Source: Mesorhizobium sp. (GTDB lineage Bacteria; Pseudomonadota; Alphaproteobacteria; Rhizobiales; Rhizobiaceae). From it: a DNA stretch of 64,000 nucleotides. The DNA lies in assembly GCA_004017535.1 (NCBI GenBank), contig SAJS01000001.1:124001-188000 (forward strand), in the 5' to 3' direction. Positions 55,377 through 64,000 of this stretch are shown here, one piece after another. The notes under the pieces were generated by a model, which had not been told where the DNA came from, did no database searches, and was given only the letters and a program-made list of their open reading frames with translations. The position numbers and the translations under genes were made by a program. The number at the start of each line of letters is the position of its first letter. Position 1 is the first letter of the stretch.

Positions 55377-55616
55377 ATGGCCGGAAATCTGCACGTCCGC
55401 AATCTGGATGACGATTTGATCGCCAAGCTGAAGATGCGTGCCGCCCGGCATGGGCGCTCGGCTGAGGCCGAGCACCGTGAAATCCTTAAGCAGGCGCTGG
55501 AAAATGAGATCGAGCCCTCGTTCGATGAACTGGCGGCCCGGCTGCGGCTGCTCACTGCGCAGCGAAAGCAAACACCCTCCGAAGTGCTGCTGCGCGAAGG
55601 ACGTGACGAACGGTGA
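55377..55616 (+). CDS. FitA-like ribbon-helix-helix antitoxin
   Basis: The 79-residue protein has a ribbon-helix-helix domain at its N-terminus (NLHVRNLDDDLIAKLKMRAARHGRSAEAEHREIL), like FitA and related VapB antitoxins, and a C-terminal segment that would bind the toxin. The next gene, a PIN toxin, overlaps its stop by 4 bp. A palindrome over its promoter is the likely autoregulatory site. Confidence 0.92.
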   Translation: MAGNLHVRNLDDDLIAKLKMRAARHGRSAEAEHREILKQALENEIEPSFDELAARLRLLTAQRKQTPSEVLLREGRDER

Positions 55617-56056
55617 CGGAAACGCTCGTCGTCGACGCCAGCATCGCTGTCAAATGGGTGGTCGAGGAGGAGGGTACGCCTCTGGCGATAGGCCTGCGGC
55701 ATGGTCGACGCTTCGCGGCGCCGGAACTGCTGATCGTCGAATGCGCCAACATTCTCTGGAAGAAGGTCCAGCGCGGTGAAGTCAGTCTCGAAGAGGCGAA
55801 GATGGCCGCAAGCTTGCTGGCGCGTAGCGATATCGAATTGTTCGGCATGCGGGGATTGCTCGCCAAAGCGACCGAACTGGCGACGGTTATCGGTCATCCG
55901 GCCTATGATTGCATGTATGTCTGCCTTGCGATGAGCCGAAACTGTCGCTTTGTGACCGCGGATGAACGCCTTGTGCGAGTGCTGCACCAGAAGGCTACCC
56001 GCGAAATCGCCAATCTCTGCGTGACCTTGGAGCAGCTCTCAGCCGGTTCGAATTAA
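55613..56056 (+). CDS. PIN-domain toxin (VapC/FitB type)
   Basis: The 147-residue PIN-domain protein should be a Mg-dependent endoribonuclease that blocks growth, often by cutting tRNA. The four acidic residues are visible: Asp8 (VVDASIAVKW), Glu43 (LIVECANILW), Asp99 (AYDCMYVCLA) and Asp117 (FVTADERLV). All are intact, so the toxin looks active. The start is GTG at 55613, overlapping the antitoxin stop (GTGA). Confidence 0.92.
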   Translation: MTETLVVDASIAVKWVVEEEGTPLAIGLRHGRRFAAPELLIVECANILWKKVQRGEVSLEEAKMAASLLARSDIELFGMRGLLAKATELATVIGHPAYDCMYVCLAMSRNCRFVTADERLVRVLHQKATREIANLCVTLEQLSAGSN

Positions 56057-57212: not shown

Positions 57213-58448
57213 CTACGCCGCCGGCAGCGATTTCAGCTTGACCGATTGCGAGCCGAGCGCCTCCGGCGCCGGGCTCGCCCGTTTGGCGATCAGCATCTCC
57301 GCCAGGCGGATATCGCGCGCCACTGCGTTGCCGGGGCCGATGCCGCTGGCGGCGACCAGCCTGCCGTCCTCGGCCAGATAGAACAGGATGAAGGCGCCGT
57401 CGTCGAGGTCGCGCCGCACGATGCTCTTGCCCTCATCCGAAAGCCCGGCGATCTGCAAAGTCAGCCCGTACTGATCCGACCAGAACCACGGCACGGCCGC
57501 ATGTGCCTCACCGGCGCCCAGCATGTTCCTGGCGGCGAGCGCGCCTTGCTCCTGCGCGTTGCGCCACGCTTCCAGCCGCACGCGCCGGCCGCCATAGATG
57601 GCGAGCGGGAAAGAGCAGCAATCCCCGGCGGCGAAGATATCCGGGTCGGCGGTGCGCAAATGCTCGTCCACCGCGATGCCGTTGTCGATCGCAAGGCCCG
57701 CCTCGGCGGCAAGCGCCGTAACCGCCACGGCGCCGATGCCGATCACCACGAGATCGGCGACGATCCTCTGTCCGCCGGCCAGCGTGATGGCGACTTCCTT
57801 GCCGTCATCGGCAATCGCAGCTAACCCCTGGCCGGTGTGGATCGCGACGCCCTCGGCCTCATGCGCCTTGTGGATGATTTCGGCGATCTCGGCCGGCACG
57901 CCGCGCATCAGGATGCGCGGCTGCGCCTCGATGACAGTGACCGTGGCGCCGAGCTTGCACGCCGAGGCGGCAAGCTCCAGCCCGATGAACCCACCGCCGA
58001 TGACGGCGACGCGATTTCCCGCGCTGAGATGGGCGCGGATGGCAAGCGCATCGTTGAAGGTCCTGAGATAGACGCAGCACGGCCCCAGCCCCGGCATCGG
58101 CAGCTGGCGCGGCACCGAGCCGGTGGCCAGCAGCAGCTTGTCGTAGGTAAGCGAAGAGCCGTCCGACAGCTGCACGATATGGGCCGCGCGGTCGATCGCG
58201 ACCGCCCGGACGGAATGGATATGTCGGATGGAGCGCTCGGCAAAGAGCGCGTCGCTGGCGATCGCCTTGATGGAGGGAGCCTCTCCGGTCATCGCGTCCT
58301 TCGACAGCGGCGGCCGCTCATAGGGCAGATGCGGCTCGTCGCCGATCAGTGTCACCGGCCCATCATAGCCGAGATCGCGGAGCGCAAGCGCCGCGCGCCC
58401 GCCGCACTCGCCCGCACCGATGATCACCATCCCGGCCATCGCCGTCAT
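57213..58448 (-). CDS. FAD-dependent ferredoxin reductase, MocF-like
   Basis: The 411-residue flavoprotein passes electrons from NAD(P)H to a ferredoxin. FAD motif VIIGAGECGGRAA (near residue 8), NAD motif AVIGGGFIGLELAAS, and the later FAD site DPDIFAAGDCCS are all present. It overlaps the Rieske ferredoxin gene by 4 bp, so it should be the reductase partner of the membrane oxygenase two genes upstream. The order oxygenase-ferredoxin-reductase is that of rhizobial mocDEF. ATG at 58448 starts MTAMAGMVIIGAG. Confidence 0.9.
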   Translation of the reverse strand: MTAMAGMVIIGAGECGGRAALALRDLGYDGPVTLIGDEPHLPYERPPLSKDAMTGEAPSIKAIASDALFAERSIRHIHSVRAVAIDRAAHIVQLSDGSSLTYDKLLLATGSVPRQLPMPGLGPCCVYLRTFNDALAIRAHLSAGNRVAVIGGGFIGLELAASACKLGATVTVIEAQPRILMRGVPAEIAEIIHKAHEAEGVAIHTGQGLAAIADDGKEVAITLAGGQRIVADLVVIGIGAVAVTALAAEAGLAIDNGIAVDEHLRTADPDIFAAGDCCSFPLAIYGGRRVRLEAWRNAQEQGALAARNMLGAGEAHAAVPWFWSDQYGLTLQIAGLSDEGKSIVRRDLDDGAFILFYLAEDGRLVAASGIGPGNAVARDIRLAEMLIAKRASPAPEALGSQSVKLKSLPAA

Positions 58449-58759
58449 CCGACCTGGATCAGGACCTTTCCGGCATCGATCTTGACCGGATAAGTCCTGA
58501 GGTTGACGCAGACCGGCGCGCCGCGCGCGTCGCCGGTCTTGTAGTTGAAGCGGCCATTGTGCTTGGGGCATTCGATGATGTCGTCCATCACCAGCCCGTC
58601 GGCCAGATGCACCTTTTCATGCGTGCACAGGCCGTCGGTGGCGAAATATTCGTCGTCCGGGCTGCGGTAGATGGCGAAGGTGCGTCCGGCATGGTCGAAC
58701 CGCATCACGTCCTCTTCCTCGATATCTCCGGCCGCGCAGGCCTCGACCCAGTCGCTCAT
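58445..58759 (-). CDS. Rieske-type ferredoxin, MocE family
   Basis: The 104-residue protein is a soluble Rieske [2Fe-2S] ferredoxin with the ligands Cys45-x-His47 (LCTHEKVHL) and Cys64-xx-His67 (ECPKHNGRF). The MSDWVEACAAGDIEEEDVMR start is typical of the MocE group. It sits between the oxygenase (36 bp upstream) and its reductase (4-bp overlap), and should carry electrons between them. Confidence 0.95.
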   Translation of the reverse strand: MSDWVEACAAGDIEEEDVMRFDHAGRTFAIYRSPDDEYFATDGLCTHEKVHLADGLVMDDIIECPKHNGRFNYKTGDARGAPVCVNLRTYPVKIDAGKVLIQVG

Positions 58760-58795
58760 CTCGTCCTCGTGAATTCCTAAACAGCCTTCGGCAAC

Positions 58796-59902
58796 TCACT
58801 CACCCGCGGCCGCCACCGGATTGTGGTTGTGCAGGTCTTCCCGGTAGGGCTTCGCCGTCGGCGGCAGCGCGCGCTTGAGGAAATAATCCTCGTTGCGCAG
58901 CTGGCGCAGGAAGGCAGGGATCATCTCGCGATAGCCGGCCAGGATCGACGGCGTCGGCGCCGGCAGGTCGTGTTTGATCATCTCGTGCAGCTTGGGCAGC
59001 GCGTGATAGGGCACCATCGGGAACATGTGGTGCTCCACATGGTAGTTCATGTTCCAGTAGATGAACCGGCTGATCGGATTCATGTAGACGGTGCGGCTGT
59101 TGAGCCGGTGGTCGATGACATTTTCGGCGAGCCCGCCATGCTGCAGCAGCCCGGTCATCACGTGATGCCAGGCGCCGTAGAGCCGAGGCAGGCCGACAAG
59201 CATAAGCGGCAGCCATGAATGCAGATAAAACGCCGGCGCGATGGTGGCGACGTAGATGGCGAGCCATATGCGCGCGACTCGGATCGCCTTCGGCTGCTCC
59301 TGTTCGGGAATGAAGGTCTTTTCGGCGGGGCTGATGATTCCGGCGGCATTGCGCAGCATGTCGGTCATCGCATGCCAGGCGTCGAGGATGCCGAAGAAGT
59401 TCAGCACCACACGCAGCAGGTCCGGCGGGCGCATGACGGCGATCTCCGGGTCGCGGCCGACGATGATGGTATCGGTGTGGTGGCGCGTATGACTCCAGCG
59501 CCAGGTCACCGGATTGCGCATGATCATGAAGCAGGCGAGCTGGTAGACGGCGTCGTTCATCCACTGCGTGCGAAAGGCCGTGCCGTGGCCGCATTCGTGC
59601 CAGCGGGAGTCGGTCGAGGAGCCGTAAAGCGTGCCGTAGACGAAGAAGAACGGCACGCACCACCAGCTGCCCCAGAACCAGATCCCGCCCGCGGCGCTGA
59701 TGACGAATGCGGCCAGCCAGATGATGGTGTCGCGGATCGCCGGCTGGTCGGAGCGCTGCATGAGCTCCTTCATCTGCTTGCGCGGGATCTCGGTGTGGTA
59801 CCACTCCGCCGCCGCGAGCCCGTTCTCGACCGCAAGCCTGGCGTTCCGGCCGGTCAGGCTGTAGTCACGTGGCGACGCCGCCGAAGACGTGATTGCCGTC
59901 AT
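58796..59902 (-). CDS. membrane di-iron fatty-acid-desaturase-like oxygenase, MocD-like
   Basis: The 368-residue membrane protein has the three His boxes of the desaturase/alkane-hydroxylase superfamily: HECGH (102-106), HTRHH (138-142) and HVEHH (288-292). Hydrophobic helices flank them. MocD of Sinorhizobium is such a protein and works with MocE and MocF in breaking down 3-O-methyl-scyllo-inosamine. The start at 59902 has GGAGGAA 5 nt upstream; the open frame runs 42 codons further without support. It could instead be a plain fatty-acid desaturase. Confidence 0.88.
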   Translation of the reverse strand: MTAITSSAASPRDYSLTGRNARLAVENGLAAAEWYHTEIPRKQMKELMQRSDQPAIRDTIIWLAAFVISAAGGIWFWGSWWCVPFFFVYGTLYGSSTDSRWHECGHGTAFRTQWMNDAVYQLACFMIMRNPVTWRWSHTRHHTDTIIVGRDPEIAVMRPPDLLRVVLNFFGILDAWHAMTDMLRNAAGIISPAEKTFIPEQEQPKAIRVARIWLAIYVATIAPAFYLHSWLPLMLVGLPRLYGAWHHVMTGLLQHGGLAENVIDHRLNSRTVYMNPISRFIYWNMNYHVEHHMFPMVPYHALPKLHEMIKHDLPAPTPSILAGYREMIPAFLRQLRNEDYFLKRALPPTAKPYREDLHNHNPVAAAGE

Positions 59903-59967
59903 TGGGGTTCCTCCGCCAGCGCTTGGCGAACCGCCCTGACCATGCAGGGCTCGCGCATCGCCGACTT

Positions 59968-60038
59968 TTGACTTCAGCATAGCCGCAAGGTCTGATAGTC
60001 TCAACATCACAAAGATAGTTTCTATCATTTCCTATCAG
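59968..60038. promoter_or_regulatory. divergent promoter region with GATAG/CTATC half-sites
   Basis: Four related half-sites lie between the oxygenase and LacI genes: CTGATAG (59992-59998), GATAG (60014-60018), CTATC (60022-60026) and CTATCAG (60032-60038); the middle pair is a palindrome with a TTT centre. A minus-strand promoter TTGAGA (59999-60004), 17 bp, TATGCT (59976-59981) would serve the oxygenase operon, with the first half-site in its spacer. A weaker plus-strand promoter is TTGACT (59968-59973), 17 bp, TCTGAT. The LacI protein is the obvious candidate binder. Confidence 0.6.
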
Positions 60039-60092
60039 AATGAGTTATCTTGAACTGGATATTCAGGGTGGGACACAAGCGAGGAAGCATTC

Positions 60093-61124
60093 ATGGCAAA
60101 GCGCCCGACCATTACCGATCTCGCGCGCGTCTCCGGCGTCAGCGTCGCCACCGTCGACAGGGTGCTGAACAGCCGCCTGCCGGTGCGCGAGGAGACGGCG
60201 CGCCGGGTCTATGACGCCGCCACCGAGATCGGCTATCACGCCGCCGGGCTGATCAAGCAGCGCATGCGCCAGGAATTGCCGGAATATCGGCTCGGCTTCC
60301 TGCTGCTCAGGGGCAATGACGTCTTCTATGGCGATTTCGCCAGGGAGCTCGAGCTGGCGGTCGCGCAGTCGCAGCGTTTTCGCGGCGTTGCAACCATCGA
60401 TTTCGCCGCTTCGCTGGCGCCCGATGAGATCGCCGCCCAGATGCGTGGGCTGGCGGCGAAATCCAGGGCCATCGCCGTCGTCGGCCCGGACCATCCGACA
60501 CTGACGGCGGTCGTGGAGACACTGAAGGCGAGGGGGCAGCCGGTCTTCTCGCTGCTGTCGGATTTTGCCGCCGGCATCCGCGAGGGCTATGTCGGGCTCG
60601 ACAACCGCAAGGTCGGGCGCAGCGCGGCCTGGATGATCGCCAAGGCCGCCAGGAAGCCGGGCAAGGTCGCGCTCTTCGTCGGCAGCCATCGCTTCCATGG
60701 CCATGAATTGCGCGAGATCGGCTTCCGCTCTTTCTTCCGCGAGCACGCGCCCGACTTCACCGTGATGGAGACGCTGGTCAACCTCGAGGCCAACGACGTG
60801 ACGCATGACGCCATGCTCGACCTCCTGGCCCGCCATCCCGATCTCGCCGGCTGCTACGTCGCCGGCGGCGGCATGGAGGGCGCGGTTTCGGCGCTGCGGA
60901 CGGCGCGCCCGGTCGAGATGCCGGTCGTGATCTGCAACGAGATCAACGCTGTCTCACGCGCCGCACTTGCCGACAACATCCTCACCATGGTGATCTCGAC
61001 GCCACTCGCCGCGCTCTGCCGGGAACTCGTAGGGTTGATGGCACATGCCATCGAAAGCGGCGCGGCCAATGCGCCGGGACAGACCTTCCTGCCTTTCGAC
61101 ATCTATCTGCCGGAAAATATCTAA
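60093..61124 (+). CDS. LacI family transcriptional regulator
   Basis: The 343-residue regulator has the LacI helix-turn-helix (TITDLARVSGVSVATVDRVLN, residues 6-26) and hinge, then a periplasmic-binding-like effector domain (residues about 62-343). Its DNA-binding domain and its sugar-type neighbours suggest a sugar or cyclitol inducer. AGGA lies 7 nt before the ATG. It is divergent from the mocDEF-like operon and upstream of the ABC transporter, so it probably controls both. Confidence 0.94.
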   Translation: MAKRPTITDLARVSGVSVATVDRVLNSRLPVREETARRVYDAATEIGYHAAGLIKQRMRQELPEYRLGFLLLRGNDVFYGDFARELELAVAQSQRFRGVATIDFAASLAPDEIAAQMRGLAAKSRAIAVVGPDHPTLTAVVETLKARGQPVFSLLSDFAAGIREGYVGLDNRKVGRSAAWMIAKAARKPGKVALFVGSHRFHGHELREIGFRSFFREHAPDFTVMETLVNLEANDVTHDAMLDLLARHPDLAGCYVAGGGMEGAVSALRTARPVEMPVVICNEINAVSRAALADNILTMVISTPLAALCRELVGLMAHAIESGAANAPGQTFLPFDIYLPENI

Positions 61125-61478
61125 GAGGCGAGCGCGATGTAGCCGATGTGATGCAATCCATCAGCCTGATGGATTCTTTCATCGTGGTTCACCCGGGCTC
61201 GGGCGCAATTTTCGACGAATTTGGTCCTCGCCCCCGCCCATAGTGATCGAAAAACCGGCCGCCCCGGTCGGAATCGCCCTTGACCTTTTCAAAACGAAAT
61301 GGAATAAATATTTCACCAAATAGGCTTTTTGGTCCTTTCGTTCCGTAACGGCTGTTCGAACGGAAGAAGAGGCGTCCAGTCGAATTGGCGACGCCTCATT
61401 GGCCGCAGGGAGAGATTCCCCGGGCAAACCGGGGATTCCGGTTCAATAGGTGCAGCCGGACACCAAGTGGAGGAGAAA
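61125..61478 (+). promoter_or_regulatory. 354-bp leader of the ABC transporter genes: palindromes and promoter candidate
   Basis: Contents in order: AATCCATCAG-C-CTGATGGATT (61155-61175), a perfect palindrome that may end the LacI transcript; a possible promoter TTGACC (61280-61285) with AATAAA 17 bp or TAAATA 19 bp downstream; GAGGCGTC / GACGCCTC inverted repeat (about 61369-61397); and a CCCCGG-GCAAA-CCGGGG hairpin (about 61427-61443). The transporter start has a strong GTGGAGGAG ribosome-binding site. No gene is seen here. Confidence 0.5.
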
Positions 61479-62420
61479 ATGAAGAAACTTCTTTTGGGCG
61501 TCGCGCTTTCGGCGCTGATGTGTTCATCCGCCTTCGCCGCCAAGATCGGCGTTTCGATGGCTCTTTTCGACGACAACTTCCTCACCGTGCTGCGCAACGG
61601 CATGATTGCGCAGGCCAAGGGCATGGATGGCGTCGAGCTGCAGGTCGAGGACGCGCAGAACGACGTTGCCAAGCAGCTCGACCAGATCAAGAACTTCGCC
61701 GCCTCGGGCGTCGACGCTATCATCGTCAACCCGGTCGACACCTCGGCCACGCAGGCGATGTCGGACGCGGCCGCCGCGGCCAAGATCCCGCTGGTTTATG
61801 TCAACCGCGAGCCGGTCAATGTCGACAAACTGCCCGACAACCAGGCTTTCGTCGCTTCCAACGAAGCCGATTCCGGCACGCTCGAGACCAAGGAAGCCTG
61901 CCGCCTGTTCAAGGAAGCCGGCAAGAAGGAGGCCAATGTCTATGTGATCATGGGCGAGCTTTCGAACCAGGCCGCGGTGCAGCGTACCAAGGACATCGAG
62001 GAAGTCATTGCCACCCCGGATTGCAACTTCATCAAGATCATCGACAAGCAGACATCGAACTGGAAGCGTGACGAGGCGCAGAACCTGATGACCAACTGGC
62101 TGTCGTCGGGCAAGGCCTTCGACGGCGTCATCGCCAACAACGACGAAAGCGCCATCGGCGCCATCCAGGCGATGAAGGCCGCCAATGTCGACATGAAGTC
62201 GGTGGTGGTCACCGGCGTCGACGCCACCCAGGACGCGCTGGTGGCGATGCAGGCGGGCGATCTCGACGCGACGGTCTTCCAGGACGCGGCCGGCCAGGGC
62301 GCCGGCGCGCTCGACGCCGCGCTGAAGCTCTCCAAGGGCGAGAAGGTGGACAAGAAGGTCTACATCCCGTTCCAGCTCGTGACGCCGGCGAACATCGACA
62401 AGTTCTTGAAGAAGAACTGA
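61479..62420 (+). CDS. sugar ABC transporter substrate-binding protein, MocB/ribose-binding type
   Basis: The 313-residue protein has a signal peptide (MKKLLLGVALSALMCSSAFA, cleavage near residue 20-21) and a periplasmic binding protein type 1 fold: KIGVSMALFDDNFLTVLRNGM, then GVDAIIVNPVDTSATQAM and GVDATQDALVAMQAGD. It belongs to the ribose/inositol/rhizopine-binding (CUT2) group; MocB of Sinorhizobium is of this kind. The ligand cannot be fixed from sequence. Permease and ATPase genes follow. Confidence 0.92.
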   Translation: MKKLLLGVALSALMCSSAFAAKIGVSMALFDDNFLTVLRNGMIAQAKGMDGVELQVEDAQNDVAKQLDQIKNFAASGVDAIIVNPVDTSATQAMSDAAAAAKIPLVYVNREPVNVDKLPDNQAFVASNEADSGTLETKEACRLFKEAGKKEANVYVIMGELSNQAAVQRTKDIEEVIATPDCNFIKIIDKQTSNWKRDEAQNLMTNWLSSGKAFDGVIANNDESAIGAIQAMKAANVDMKSVVVTGVDATQDALVAMQAGDLDATVFQDAAGQGAGALDAALKLSKGEKVDKKVYIPFQLVTPANIDKFLKKN

Positions 62421-62436
62421 GGCGCCTCGATACGGG

Positions 62437-62467
62437 GCGGCGCGTCCAACCGGAACAAGCGCGCCGC
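62437..62467 (+). repeat. stem-loop between binding-protein and permease genes
   Basis: GCGGCGCG (62437-62444) / CGCGCCGC (62460-62467), a perfect 8-bp stem with a 15-nt loop, 17 bp after the binding-protein stop. Such hairpins commonly protect the 3' end of the binding-protein mRNA so that it is made in excess over the permease. Confidence 0.6.
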
Positions 62468-62527
62468 TCCGCCCTTCCTCCCGCCGCGCGGGAGGCCGGA
62501 TAGCTGCGCCCGACGGAGGAAGAAGAC

Positions 62528-63604
62528 GTGTCACAGACATCGCATGGCATTGGCGGGCTGAGCTATGACGCCAGGAAGCGTCCGTGGCCTGCCGAGTTCA
62601 ACGTGTTCCTGGCGCTTGTCATCCTGGTCGCGGCTTTCGAGCTGGTCGGCCGCGTCTTCCTTGGCGACAGTTTCCTGTTCAACACCCGCGAGAACGTCTC
62701 CGGGCTCTTCAACGAGCAGCGCCTGCAGATCATCATCCTGCAGGTCTCGATCGTCGGCATCATCGCCATCGGCGTCACCCAGGTCATCATCTGCGGCGGC
62801 ATCGACCTGTCCTCGGGCTCGATCGTCGGTGCCACCGCCATGATCGCCATGAGCTTCGCCCAGGTCGCGACGGTCAACGGCAATCCCAATCCCAAGGCGA
62901 TGTTCATCGATTATGGCTGGACCGACCTGCCGGTCATCGTGCCGCTGCTGGTCGCGATCGGCTGCGGCCTGATCGCCGGCCTGATCAACGGCCTCTTGAT
63001 CGCCTACACGCGCATCCCGCCCTTCATCGCCACGCTGGGCATGATGGTCACCGCCCGCGGCATCGCCAAATGGTGGTCGAAGGGTCAGCCGATCTCGTTC
63101 CCGACCGACAGCTTCGCGGCGATCGGCAAGGGGCTGATGCCGGTCGTCATCTTCATCTCGCTGGCGATCCTGTTCCAGCTCATCCTGACCTACACGAAAT
63201 ACGGCAAGCACTGCTACGCAATCGGCTCCAACGAGGATGCCGCGCGCATGTCCGGCATCAAGATCGCCAACCACAAGGTGCTGGTCTATGCCATTGCCGG
63301 CATCCTCGCCTCGATCGCCGCGGTGGTGCTGTCCTCCAAGAACCTCACCGCACAGGCCGGCATGGGCGTGATGTATGAGCTCGACGCTATCGCGATGGCG
63401 GTCATCGGCGGCGTCTCGCTGTCGGGCGGCCGCGGCTCGATCATCGGTACCGTGATCGGCTCGCTGATCTTCGGCGTCATCATTTCCGGCTTCACCTTCC
63501 TGCGCCTCGACGCCTACTATCAGGAGATGGTGAAGGGCGTGATCATCGTCGGCGCGGTCGTTCTCGATCAATGGCGCCAGCGCCGCCGCGCGATAGGAGC
63601 TTGA
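62528..63604 (+). CDS. sugar ABC transporter permease (CUT2 family)
   Basis: The 358-residue membrane protein has about 8-10 hydrophobic segments and CUT2 permease patterns: GVTQVIICGGIDLSSGSIVG near residue 80, FIATLGMMVTARGIAKWW, and GGVSLSGGRGSIIGTVIGS. It forms the channel of the importer with the ATPase that follows. Start is GTG at 62528 with GGAGGA 7-8 nt upstream. It lies 107 bp after the binding protein gene. Confidence 0.94.
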   Translation: MSQTSHGIGGLSYDARKRPWPAEFNVFLALVILVAAFELVGRVFLGDSFLFNTRENVSGLFNEQRLQIIILQVSIVGIIAIGVTQVIICGGIDLSSGSIVGATAMIAMSFAQVATVNGNPNPKAMFIDYGWTDLPVIVPLLVAIGCGLIAGLINGLLIAYTRIPPFIATLGMMVTARGIAKWWSKGQPISFPTDSFAAIGKGLMPVVIFISLAILFQLILTYTKYGKHCYAIGSNEDAARMSGIKIANHKVLVYAIAGILASIAAVVLSSKNLTAQAGMGVMYELDAIAMAVIGGVSLSGGRGSIIGTVIGSLIFGVIISGFTFLRLDAYYQEMVKGVIIVGAVVLDQWRQRRRAIGA

Positions 63605-63606
63605 CC

Positions 63607-64000
63607 ATGTCAGATATCGTTCTGAAGACCGAGAACCTGACCAAGCATTATGGCGGCGTGCACGCGCTGCAGGAGGCGAATTTCGAGCTGCGCAAGGGCG
63701 AGCATGTCGCCATCATGGGCGACAACGGCGCCGGCAAGTCGACCTTCGTGCGCCAGATCACCGGTGTCGAGCAGCGCACCGAGGGCAAGATCTGGTTCGA
63801 CGGCAAGGAGGTGAATTTCGCCGGCCCGATCGAGGCGCGCGAGGCGGGCATCGAAACCGTGTTCCAGAACCTGGCTTTGGCCGATGATCTCGACGTGCCG
63901 TCGAACCTGTTCCTCGGTCGCGAGAAGGTGCTGTTCAACCTCGGCCCCTTCTCGATCCTCGACCGCAAGGCGATGCGCAAGGCGACGGAGGCAGCACTTG
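63607..64000 (+). CDS. sugar ABC transporter ATP-binding protein (partial, window end)
   Basis: Only the first 131 codons are in the window; the gene runs off the right edge. The sequence starts MSDIVLKTENLTKHYGGVHA and holds Walker A GDNGAGKST (residues 38-46) and the Q-loop TVFQNLALADDLD. The FrcA-like single-domain length cannot be checked here. It starts 2 bp after the permease stop codon and completes the importer. Confidence 0.93.
   Translation, partial: MSDIVLKTENLTKHYGGVHALQEANFELRKGEHVAIMGDNGAGKSTFVRQITGVEQRTEGKIWFDGKEVNFAGPIEAREAGIETVFQNLALADDLDVPSNLFLGREKVLFNLGPFSILDRKAMRKATEAAL

Follow-up and report, generated by a model that had tools for sequence, protein, structure and literature searches.

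On balance, we favour the view that a gene cluster at the end of a 64,000-nucleotide stretch of the Mesorhizobium sp. genome (the window, C11:124001-188000 of a 6.86 Mb assembly; coordinates below are in window numbering unless a contig label is given) is an O-methyl-cyclitol catabolic unit under a FixV-type LacI regulator, through which plant O-methyl-inositols would be imported, O-demethylated and oxidized. Rhizopine is possible as a further or main substrate. The cluster consists of the oxygenase genes mocD, mocE and mocF, a divergent lacI gene and, after lacI, the genes of a CUT2 importer with its periplasmic binding protein (SBP), followed just past the window end by idhA and an SDR gene. 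Gene content, gene order, conservation and an operator-like palindrome can be read directly from the DNA.

The three oxygenase genes form a tight operon, in which mocF and mocE overlap by 4 bases and a gap of 36 bases separates mocE from mocD. MocE scores 192.6 bits on TIGR02377, 'MocE family ferredoxin' (cut-off 136.15), and the three histidine boxes of MocD (H102/H106, H138/H141/H142 and H288/H291/H292) have histidines that are invariant across 30 aligned rows, the window's included. The curated models nearest to MocF are those of dioxygenase ferredoxin reductases, on which it scores under the cut-off. This D-E-F order of an eight-histidine membrane di-iron protein, a MocE ferredoxin and an FAD reductase is that of a mocDEF-type oxygenase set. 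A first-pass annotation of the window had recorded this operon, the divergent lacI and the binding-protein, permease and ATPase genes; all are present, and Pfam and NCBIfam agree with the labels. MocD shares the PF00487 superfamily with fatty-acid desaturases, but it is extremely improbable that it is an ordinary one: the GntB, DesB and CrtR equivalog models give 24-33 bits against cut-offs of 380-500, a mocE gene follows mocD in all 80 of the closest loci described below, and mocD sits among cyclitol genes. The annotation's separation of the oxygenase from ordinary desaturases thus holds. A structure model of MocD was poor (mean pLDDT 64.1), and a fold search with it returned chloroplast FtsHi motor-complex chains and noise, from which we conclude nothing. 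The first starts given by the open-reading-frame tool for mocD (60028) and mocF (58571) are probably too long; 59902 and 58448 are preferred because of conservation and the place of the operator-like palindrome.

When 84,980 species genomes were scanned with a MocD alignment, at least 588 coding stretches matched, and the best 80 of these were kept for neighbourhood counts. Among these 80, the nearest named loci are those of Mesorhizobium sp. ORS3359 (96%) and WSM4313 (95%). A divergent lacI lies within 400 bp in 76 loci, mocE is found in all 80 and mocF in 77, and MocR stands beside mocD in one (L158). The other loci with no counted LacI are L109, where a partial match fails the distance cut, L154, which reaches a contig end, and L176, which has none. 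The 67 loci with enough flanking sequence (8.5 kb or more upstream, 3.5 kb or more downstream) hold an SBP in 41 cases, IdhA in 33, a TIM-barrel gene in 39, a PanB-like gene in 38, SDR in 21, PurU in 15, iol genes in 12 and FolD in 4. Of the best 80 loci, 24 carry a Mesorhizobium title, and 21 of these have the full gene set, so the arrangement is not a chance one; all 21 loci with SDR are Mesorhizobium-titled and all are complete. In the tree, from which 31 of the 88 rows were left out because of their size, the MocR-type row L158 was not confidently placed.

The locus is therefore real and widespread, and its architecture has already been described in part. The available text of a 2013 paper reports FixV homologues as neighbours of mocDEF in M. 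loti, S. meliloti, NGR234, R. etli and R. leguminosarum (PMC3538637). As in the window, a FixV-type LacI lies beside or divergent from mocDEF in those systems, and the authors infer an inositol-derived inducer; in contrast, the importer, IdhA and SDR follow lacI in the window, whereas the R. etli type has a TIM-barrel gene there. The first-pass annotation had regarded the pairing with LacI, rather than MocR, as a variant. We do not, because 76 of the 80 loci have a divergent LacI and the pairing is described in that paper; with one instance in 80, the MocR pairing is not the standard arrangement.

The lacI-mocD gap contains a palindrome, TGATAG-N3-CTATCA, that resembles an operator. Scored over 12 fixed positions, with first-order resampled gaps as controls, it reaches at least 9 in all 77 such gaps (76 loci and the window; 13 reach 12 and 49 reach 11) compared with 134 of 1540 controls. 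In the window's group, 19 of 21 lacI-SBP gaps shorter than 700 bp (window included) also score at least 9 (controls about 6%); two longer ones (L117 and L119) hold no copy. Within the window's own genome, a scan with a spacer of 3 only found nine places with at most one mismatch, against two for the reversed pattern. The palindrome was not found in the two gaps of a second mocDE operon on contig C4 (best 7/12) or in the L087 gap (8/12); L088 and L091 each gave a score of 10.

The moc-box (PMC10107442, as given in its accessible text) is distributed differently. It was not seen in the LacI-type gaps, where the best scores in 76 gaps are 11-15 of 22 and those of controls 11-16; ahead of the window's mocD the best is 12/22, as in controls. 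By contrast, it scores 18/22 before mocD in L158, and 18/22 in the mocC-mocR gap further along the window's contig, where 0 of 200 controls exceeded 16. No moc-box pairs of at least 17/22 were found in L009, L010, L077-L079 or L081. The distribution of the two elements suggests that, in this genome, LacI controls mocDEF and MocR controls mocC.

The importer arm points to inositols. IdhA scores 425 bits on TIGR04380 (cut-off 355); among solved structures its closest relative is 4hkt, 'Inositol 2-dehydrogenase' (557 bits), which we take to be from S. meliloti. The SBP gives a confident structure model (mean pLDDT 91.6). Sequence and fold searches alike give 4yo7 (38% identity) as its best match among solved structures, and the Caulobacter myo-inositol-binding protein 4irx matches too. 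4yo7 is reported to have been solved with myo-inositol. The importer is thus not beside unrelated sugar genes, IdhA being in the same gene run, and genes that the annotation had proposed to look for past position 64000 exist on the same contig, with idhA 0.5 kb, iolC about 22 kb and mocC about 33 kb beyond it; for mocA no close match was found, the best in the genome being IdhA at 33%. Among the iolB-E-D-C-R genes, iolC is over TIGR04382 and iolE over TIGR04379; the labels of the remaining ones rest on position and on relatives, 96-97% identical, in G155, a genome of the same genus. The locus resembles known rhizobial inositol catabolism (4hkt, iolRCDEB) in its closely related IdhA and in having iolRCDEB on the same contig, and differs from it in that idhA belongs to a gene run divergent from a proposed O-demethylase. 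The window's importer ATPase has 268 aa and one domain; in loci of other genera whose SBP is related (61-73% identity), the ATPase is 517 aa long and shares 33% identity with it over 250 aa.

An inositol-type IdhA and SBP would also suit a plain myo-inositol operon, in which case mocDEF would act on an unrelated compound and the regulator would merely be common to both arms; the M. erdmanii locus (L110), which has mocDEF and LacI without importer or IdhA, fits this. We regard it as quite improbable, because both arms occur together in 21 of the 24 Mesorhizobium-titled loci, loci of other genera pair LacI-mocDEF with a related SBP and IdhA, and lacI is flanked on either side by operator-like sites.

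A possible but doubtful alternative is that the locus serves chiefly rhizopine (3-O-methyl-scyllo-inosamine): the importer would carry this compound, mocDEF would remove its methyl group, and the pathway would be completed by mocC and MocR, which lie 33-36 kb downstream. MocR, which is divergent from mocC, scores 738 bits on the NCBIfam rhizopine_MocR model NF052281 (cut-off 650); the mocC gene is intact and 94% identical to that of G155, which has a protein of the rhizopine binding family NF052284; the moc-box pair lies between them; and, in the available part of PMC10107442, rhizopine is reported to induce the promoter of mocD in S. meliloti L5-30. We rejected mocC as a pseudogene, as both TGA codons lie outside its 303-aa open frame, one upstream of the start and one being its own stop. 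Set against this are the lack of a moc-box before mocD noted above and that of an NF052284 protein in the genome, where the highest-scoring of 24 matches reaches 135 bits against a cut-off of 420 (the window SBP has 35 bits). An SBP more than 45% identical to the NF052284 protein of G155 was counted in none of the 67 loci with enough flanking sequence. In G155 the window cluster lies on one contig, with 91-98% identity over the seven proteins compared, and the NF052284 protein (508 bits) stands with mocC, 36 kb from the mocDEF cluster. NF052284 proteins exceed the cut-off in 7 of 394 family genomes, whereas a strong MocD (at least 61% identity) is found in 66 of 247.

Locus L158 (Rhizobium bangladeshense) provides the MocR-type comparison. 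It carries mocC, a dehydrogenase and an SBP gene on the minus strand, and MocR (743.5 bits on NF052281) divergent from the SBP, then mocDEF, a PanB-like gene, purU and folD. Because this layout matches that in the accessible text of PMC10107442, with mocR divergent from mocB and with mocBA, mocC and mocDEF as further units, we place the SBP and dehydrogenase of L158 as mocB and mocA. The dehydrogenase, so labelled by position, is the mocA query whose best match in the window's genome was IdhA, which is a further point against rhizopine. The SBP in the MocB position scores 39.5 bits on NF052284, far under the cut-off, and is 62% identical to the window's; failure on this model is hence no proof that the window SBP is unlike MocB, and we discarded the argument that it cannot be MocB on that ground, giving rhizopine slightly more weight and the O-methyl-inositol reading slightly less. 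The annotation's use of MocB as a comparator thus gains some support. Like the window, L158 and the moc genes of L5-30 (PMC10107442, in the text available) have the mocD-E-F order and the same families, and the window's genome also has mocC and MocR elsewhere on the contig. In contrast to both, LacI rather than MocR stands beside mocD in the window, and the moc-box before mocD and a close mocA are missing; its genome further differs in the importer with CUT1-type proteins (SBP_bac_1, BPD_transp_1 and a MalK-type ATPase) that lies beside mocC, between mocC/MocR and the second inositol-type dehydrogenase. This CUT1-type importer occupies the place of G155's NF052284 protein (L241:1-2798, L077:15679-19765). 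A YdjC-family gene (PF04794 in L080) lies near the NF052284-type loci L080, L081, L085 and L086 and near L158.

Several of these observations weigh against an O-methyl-inositol unit controlled by LacI. The mocDEF genes are known from work on rhizopine; the genome has mocC and an over-cut-off MocR; the window SBP is akin to that in the MocB position of L158 and could carry plain myo-inositol; and the palindrome reaches 11/12 in L176, which has no LacI, and 10/12 before mocD in L158, which weakens its specificity for LacI; given the match in L158, the LacI and MocR systems may overlap to some degree. The best 80 of at least 588 stretches supplied the neighbourhood counts, which are not independent of kinship. 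No PanB-like gene, whose linkage to mocD is described below, was found behind mocF in the window's locus; it is present in 7 of the 21 complete Mesorhizobium loci, and the sole copy over E 1e-60 in the genome lies on contig C4 beside the second mocDE. The kinship of the SBP does not decide between methyl-inositol and rhizopine, and sequence alone cannot tell these substrates apart. According to the accessible text of PMC10107442, MocB works with the membrane parts of the inositol importer IntBC, and binding proteins for inositol and for rhizopine may for this reason be near kin.

A clue to the chemistry comes from the PanB-like gene, which many loci carry 3' of mocF or mocE, some of them together with purU and folD. 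PanB is an enzyme of tetrahydrofolate-dependent one-carbon transfer, and formyl- and methylene-tetrahydrofolate are handled by PurU and FolD. In the 247 family genomes counted above, the PanB-like gene is present in 56, all within the 66 with MocD of at least 61% identity (hypergeometric p about 1e-45, kinship ignored). Of the 69 PanB-like copies, 57 have a MocD gene within 5 kb. In these counts only part of the candidates of some genomes was scored, and weak matches are unlisted. The protein scores 105-126 bits on PanB models (cut-offs 208-272) and is well inside Pfam PF02548. Because PanB-like, purU and folD genes are linked to MocD, we infer an oxygenase that would release formaldehyde, as in O-demethylation, and the linkage suggests that the methyl carbon passes to tetrahydrofolate. 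The second operon of the same genome (L010:3325-11576 on C4) comprises genes for a Gfo/Idh protein, a TIM-barrel protein (PF01261), MocD2 (68% to MocD), MocE2 and the PanB-like protein, without mocF, and is preceded by an ABC importer whose binding protein is PotD-like (158 bits, under the PotD cut-off).

In the O-methyl-cyclitol model that we favour, whose substrate, ligand, demethylation step, LacI binding and direction of regulation are predictions from gene and motif content, the CUT2 importer would take up inositol or O-methyl-inositol. Electrons from NAD(P)H would pass through MocF and MocE to MocD, which would hydroxylate the O-methyl group; the resulting hemiacetal would split into formaldehyde and the free cyclitol. 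IdhA would oxidize the cyclitol to an inosose, to be broken down by the iolEDCB enzymes encoded about 20 kb away. The FixV-type LacI would bind TGATAG-N3-CTATCA in the lacI-mocD gap, and the weaker copies ahead of the importer, and would respond to a cyclitol or an early product. The likeliest natural substrates would be the legume O-methyl-inositols ononitol, pinitol and O-methyl-scyllo-inositol, and mocC and MocR further on would extend the use of this demethylase to rhizopine or a related inosamine.

Published observations, as far as the available texts go, are compatible with such substrates. The mocDEF, importer-operon, iol and idhA genes of R. mesoamericanum rise in Mimosa root exudate, in which pinitol was the most concentrated compound measured; the authors suggested rhizopine catabolism (PMC5789663). 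Lotus nodules contain pinitol and ononitol (PMC8730688). A MocR biosensor, with ononitol and pinitol among the compounds tried, is reported to be activated by scyllo-inosamine and one 3-O-methyl-scyllo-inosamine enantiomer (PMC6668481), results with which a separate sensor for methyl-inositols would fit. PMC8877191 and PMC4052901 deal with other LacI regulators, and their accessible portions do not name mocD. In the open-licence literature searched, no bacterial route for removing the methyl group from methyl-inositols is described. The first-pass reading of the locus as one for rhizopine or methyl-cyclitols was thus largely right, with IdhA, iolRCDEB, mocC and MocR all on the contig; what did not survive was the idea of the LacI pairing as a variant.

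The regulator also connects the locus to symbiosis genes. Contig C36 (L011) encodes NodB, NodC, NodI and NodJ, all over curated cut-offs, and carries fixV followed by a TIM-barrel gene. The window LacI is 59% identical over 341 aa to this FixV, and the two share GVSVATVDRVLN in the DNA-binding domain, a segment that we take to contain the recognition helix. A palindrome of the same half-sites, with a spacer of 3 or 4 and a score of at least 10/12, follows fixV in 13 of 22 distinct sequences (51 loci; controls about 0.6%), while the other 9 score below 10, several of the 13 are near-copies, and the sequences are related and the counts not independent. In L220, L225 and L235, nifA follows fixV at about 0.5 kb, and the palindrome lies 6-21 bp after the fixV stop in all three; nifA of L220 scores 726 bits on TIGR01817 (cut-off 528.85), and those of L225 and L235 are assigned by near-identical translation. 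These three loci also hold a second inverted repeat, CTTTCAT-N2-ATGAAAG, both repeats lying about 6-52 bp past the fixV stop, and a similar second repeat follows fixV in loci with the TIM-barrel gene.

By the accessible text of PMC3538637, the 536-bp fragment sufficient for nifA2 would start about 22 bp past fixV. If R7A is alike, the palindrome lies outside it, which argues against its being essential; the second repeat would fall inside. That O-methyl-inositols are the signal for the whole FixV family, directing catabolism through the soil LacI and nifA2 through the nodule FixV, and that the PanB-like protein is a new enzyme giving the methyl carbon to tetrahydrofolate, is an extension that we consider unlikely as it stands.

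The features of the locus and of the downstream contig are collected in Table 1. Just ahead of the locus, at 55613-56056, a short frame encodes a PIN domain (PF01850; 34.5 bits against a cut-off of 23.6).

Table 1. Features of the mocDEF-lacI-importer locus and of related genes further along contig C11
Feature	Position	Strand	Description and support
mocF	57213-58448	-	FAD-dependent NAD(P)H:ferredoxin reductase; PF07992 (Pyr_redox_2) and PF14759 (Reductase_C)
mocE	58445-58759	-	Rieske-type [2Fe-2S] ferredoxin; TIGR02377; CTH...CPKH cluster ligands visible in translation
mocD	58796-59902	-	Membrane di-iron (8-His) oxygenase, fatty-acid-desaturase superfamily, proposed O-demethylase; PF00487
Putative LacI operator	60013-60027		Palindrome TGATAG-N3-CTATCA with 1 mismatch, in the mocD-lacI gap
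lacI	60093-61124	+	FixV-type regulator; PF00356 and PF13407
Degenerate operator-like palindrome	61149-61163		Ahead of importer genes; score 9/12
Second degenerate operator-like palindrome	61167-61181		Score 10/12
SBP	61479-62420	+	Periplasmic binding protein of CUT2 type, with (O-methyl-)cyclitols as proposed ligands; PF13407
Permease	62528-63604	+	CUT2 permease; PF02653
ATPase	63571 (probably 63607) to 64377, past window end	+	CUT2 ATPase, single nucleotide-binding domain; L009:7572-8378
idhA	64460-65452, outside window		TIGR04380; L009:8461-9453
SDR	65457-66278, outside window		After idhA; L009:9458-10279
iolB-E-D-C-R	C11:206479-213417		iolC about 22 kb past window end
Second inositol-type dehydrogenase	C11:215678-216679		TIGR04380, 394.9 bits
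mocC	C11:220886-221797		About 33 kb past window end; 94% to G155 mocC; scored by NCBIfam as iolE
MocR	C11:222304-223818		Divergent from mocC; about 34 kb past window end, not beside mocD

The arrangement as such is common, and the pairing of a FixV-type LacI with mocDEF was already known from the 2013 work (PMC3538637, in its available text). New here are the operator-like palindrome, the counted link to PanB-like, purU and folD genes, the separation of LacI from MocR control, the complete gene set and the half-site palindrome after fixV. Legume nodules and root exudates are rich in methylated inositols (PMC8730688, PMC5789663, in the parts accessible), and this root-nodule bacterium probably uses the locus to take up plant methylated sugar-alcohols, demethylate them and burn the remainder. 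A widespread locus that fits methyl-inositol demethylation, with a precise putative operator, allows a direct test of this function. The available text of PMC3538637 does not settle which compound induces FixV in Mesorhizobium nodules; the locus provides candidate DNA sites and candidate ligands for FixV, and with them a link to the switch for nitrogen fixation that can be tested.

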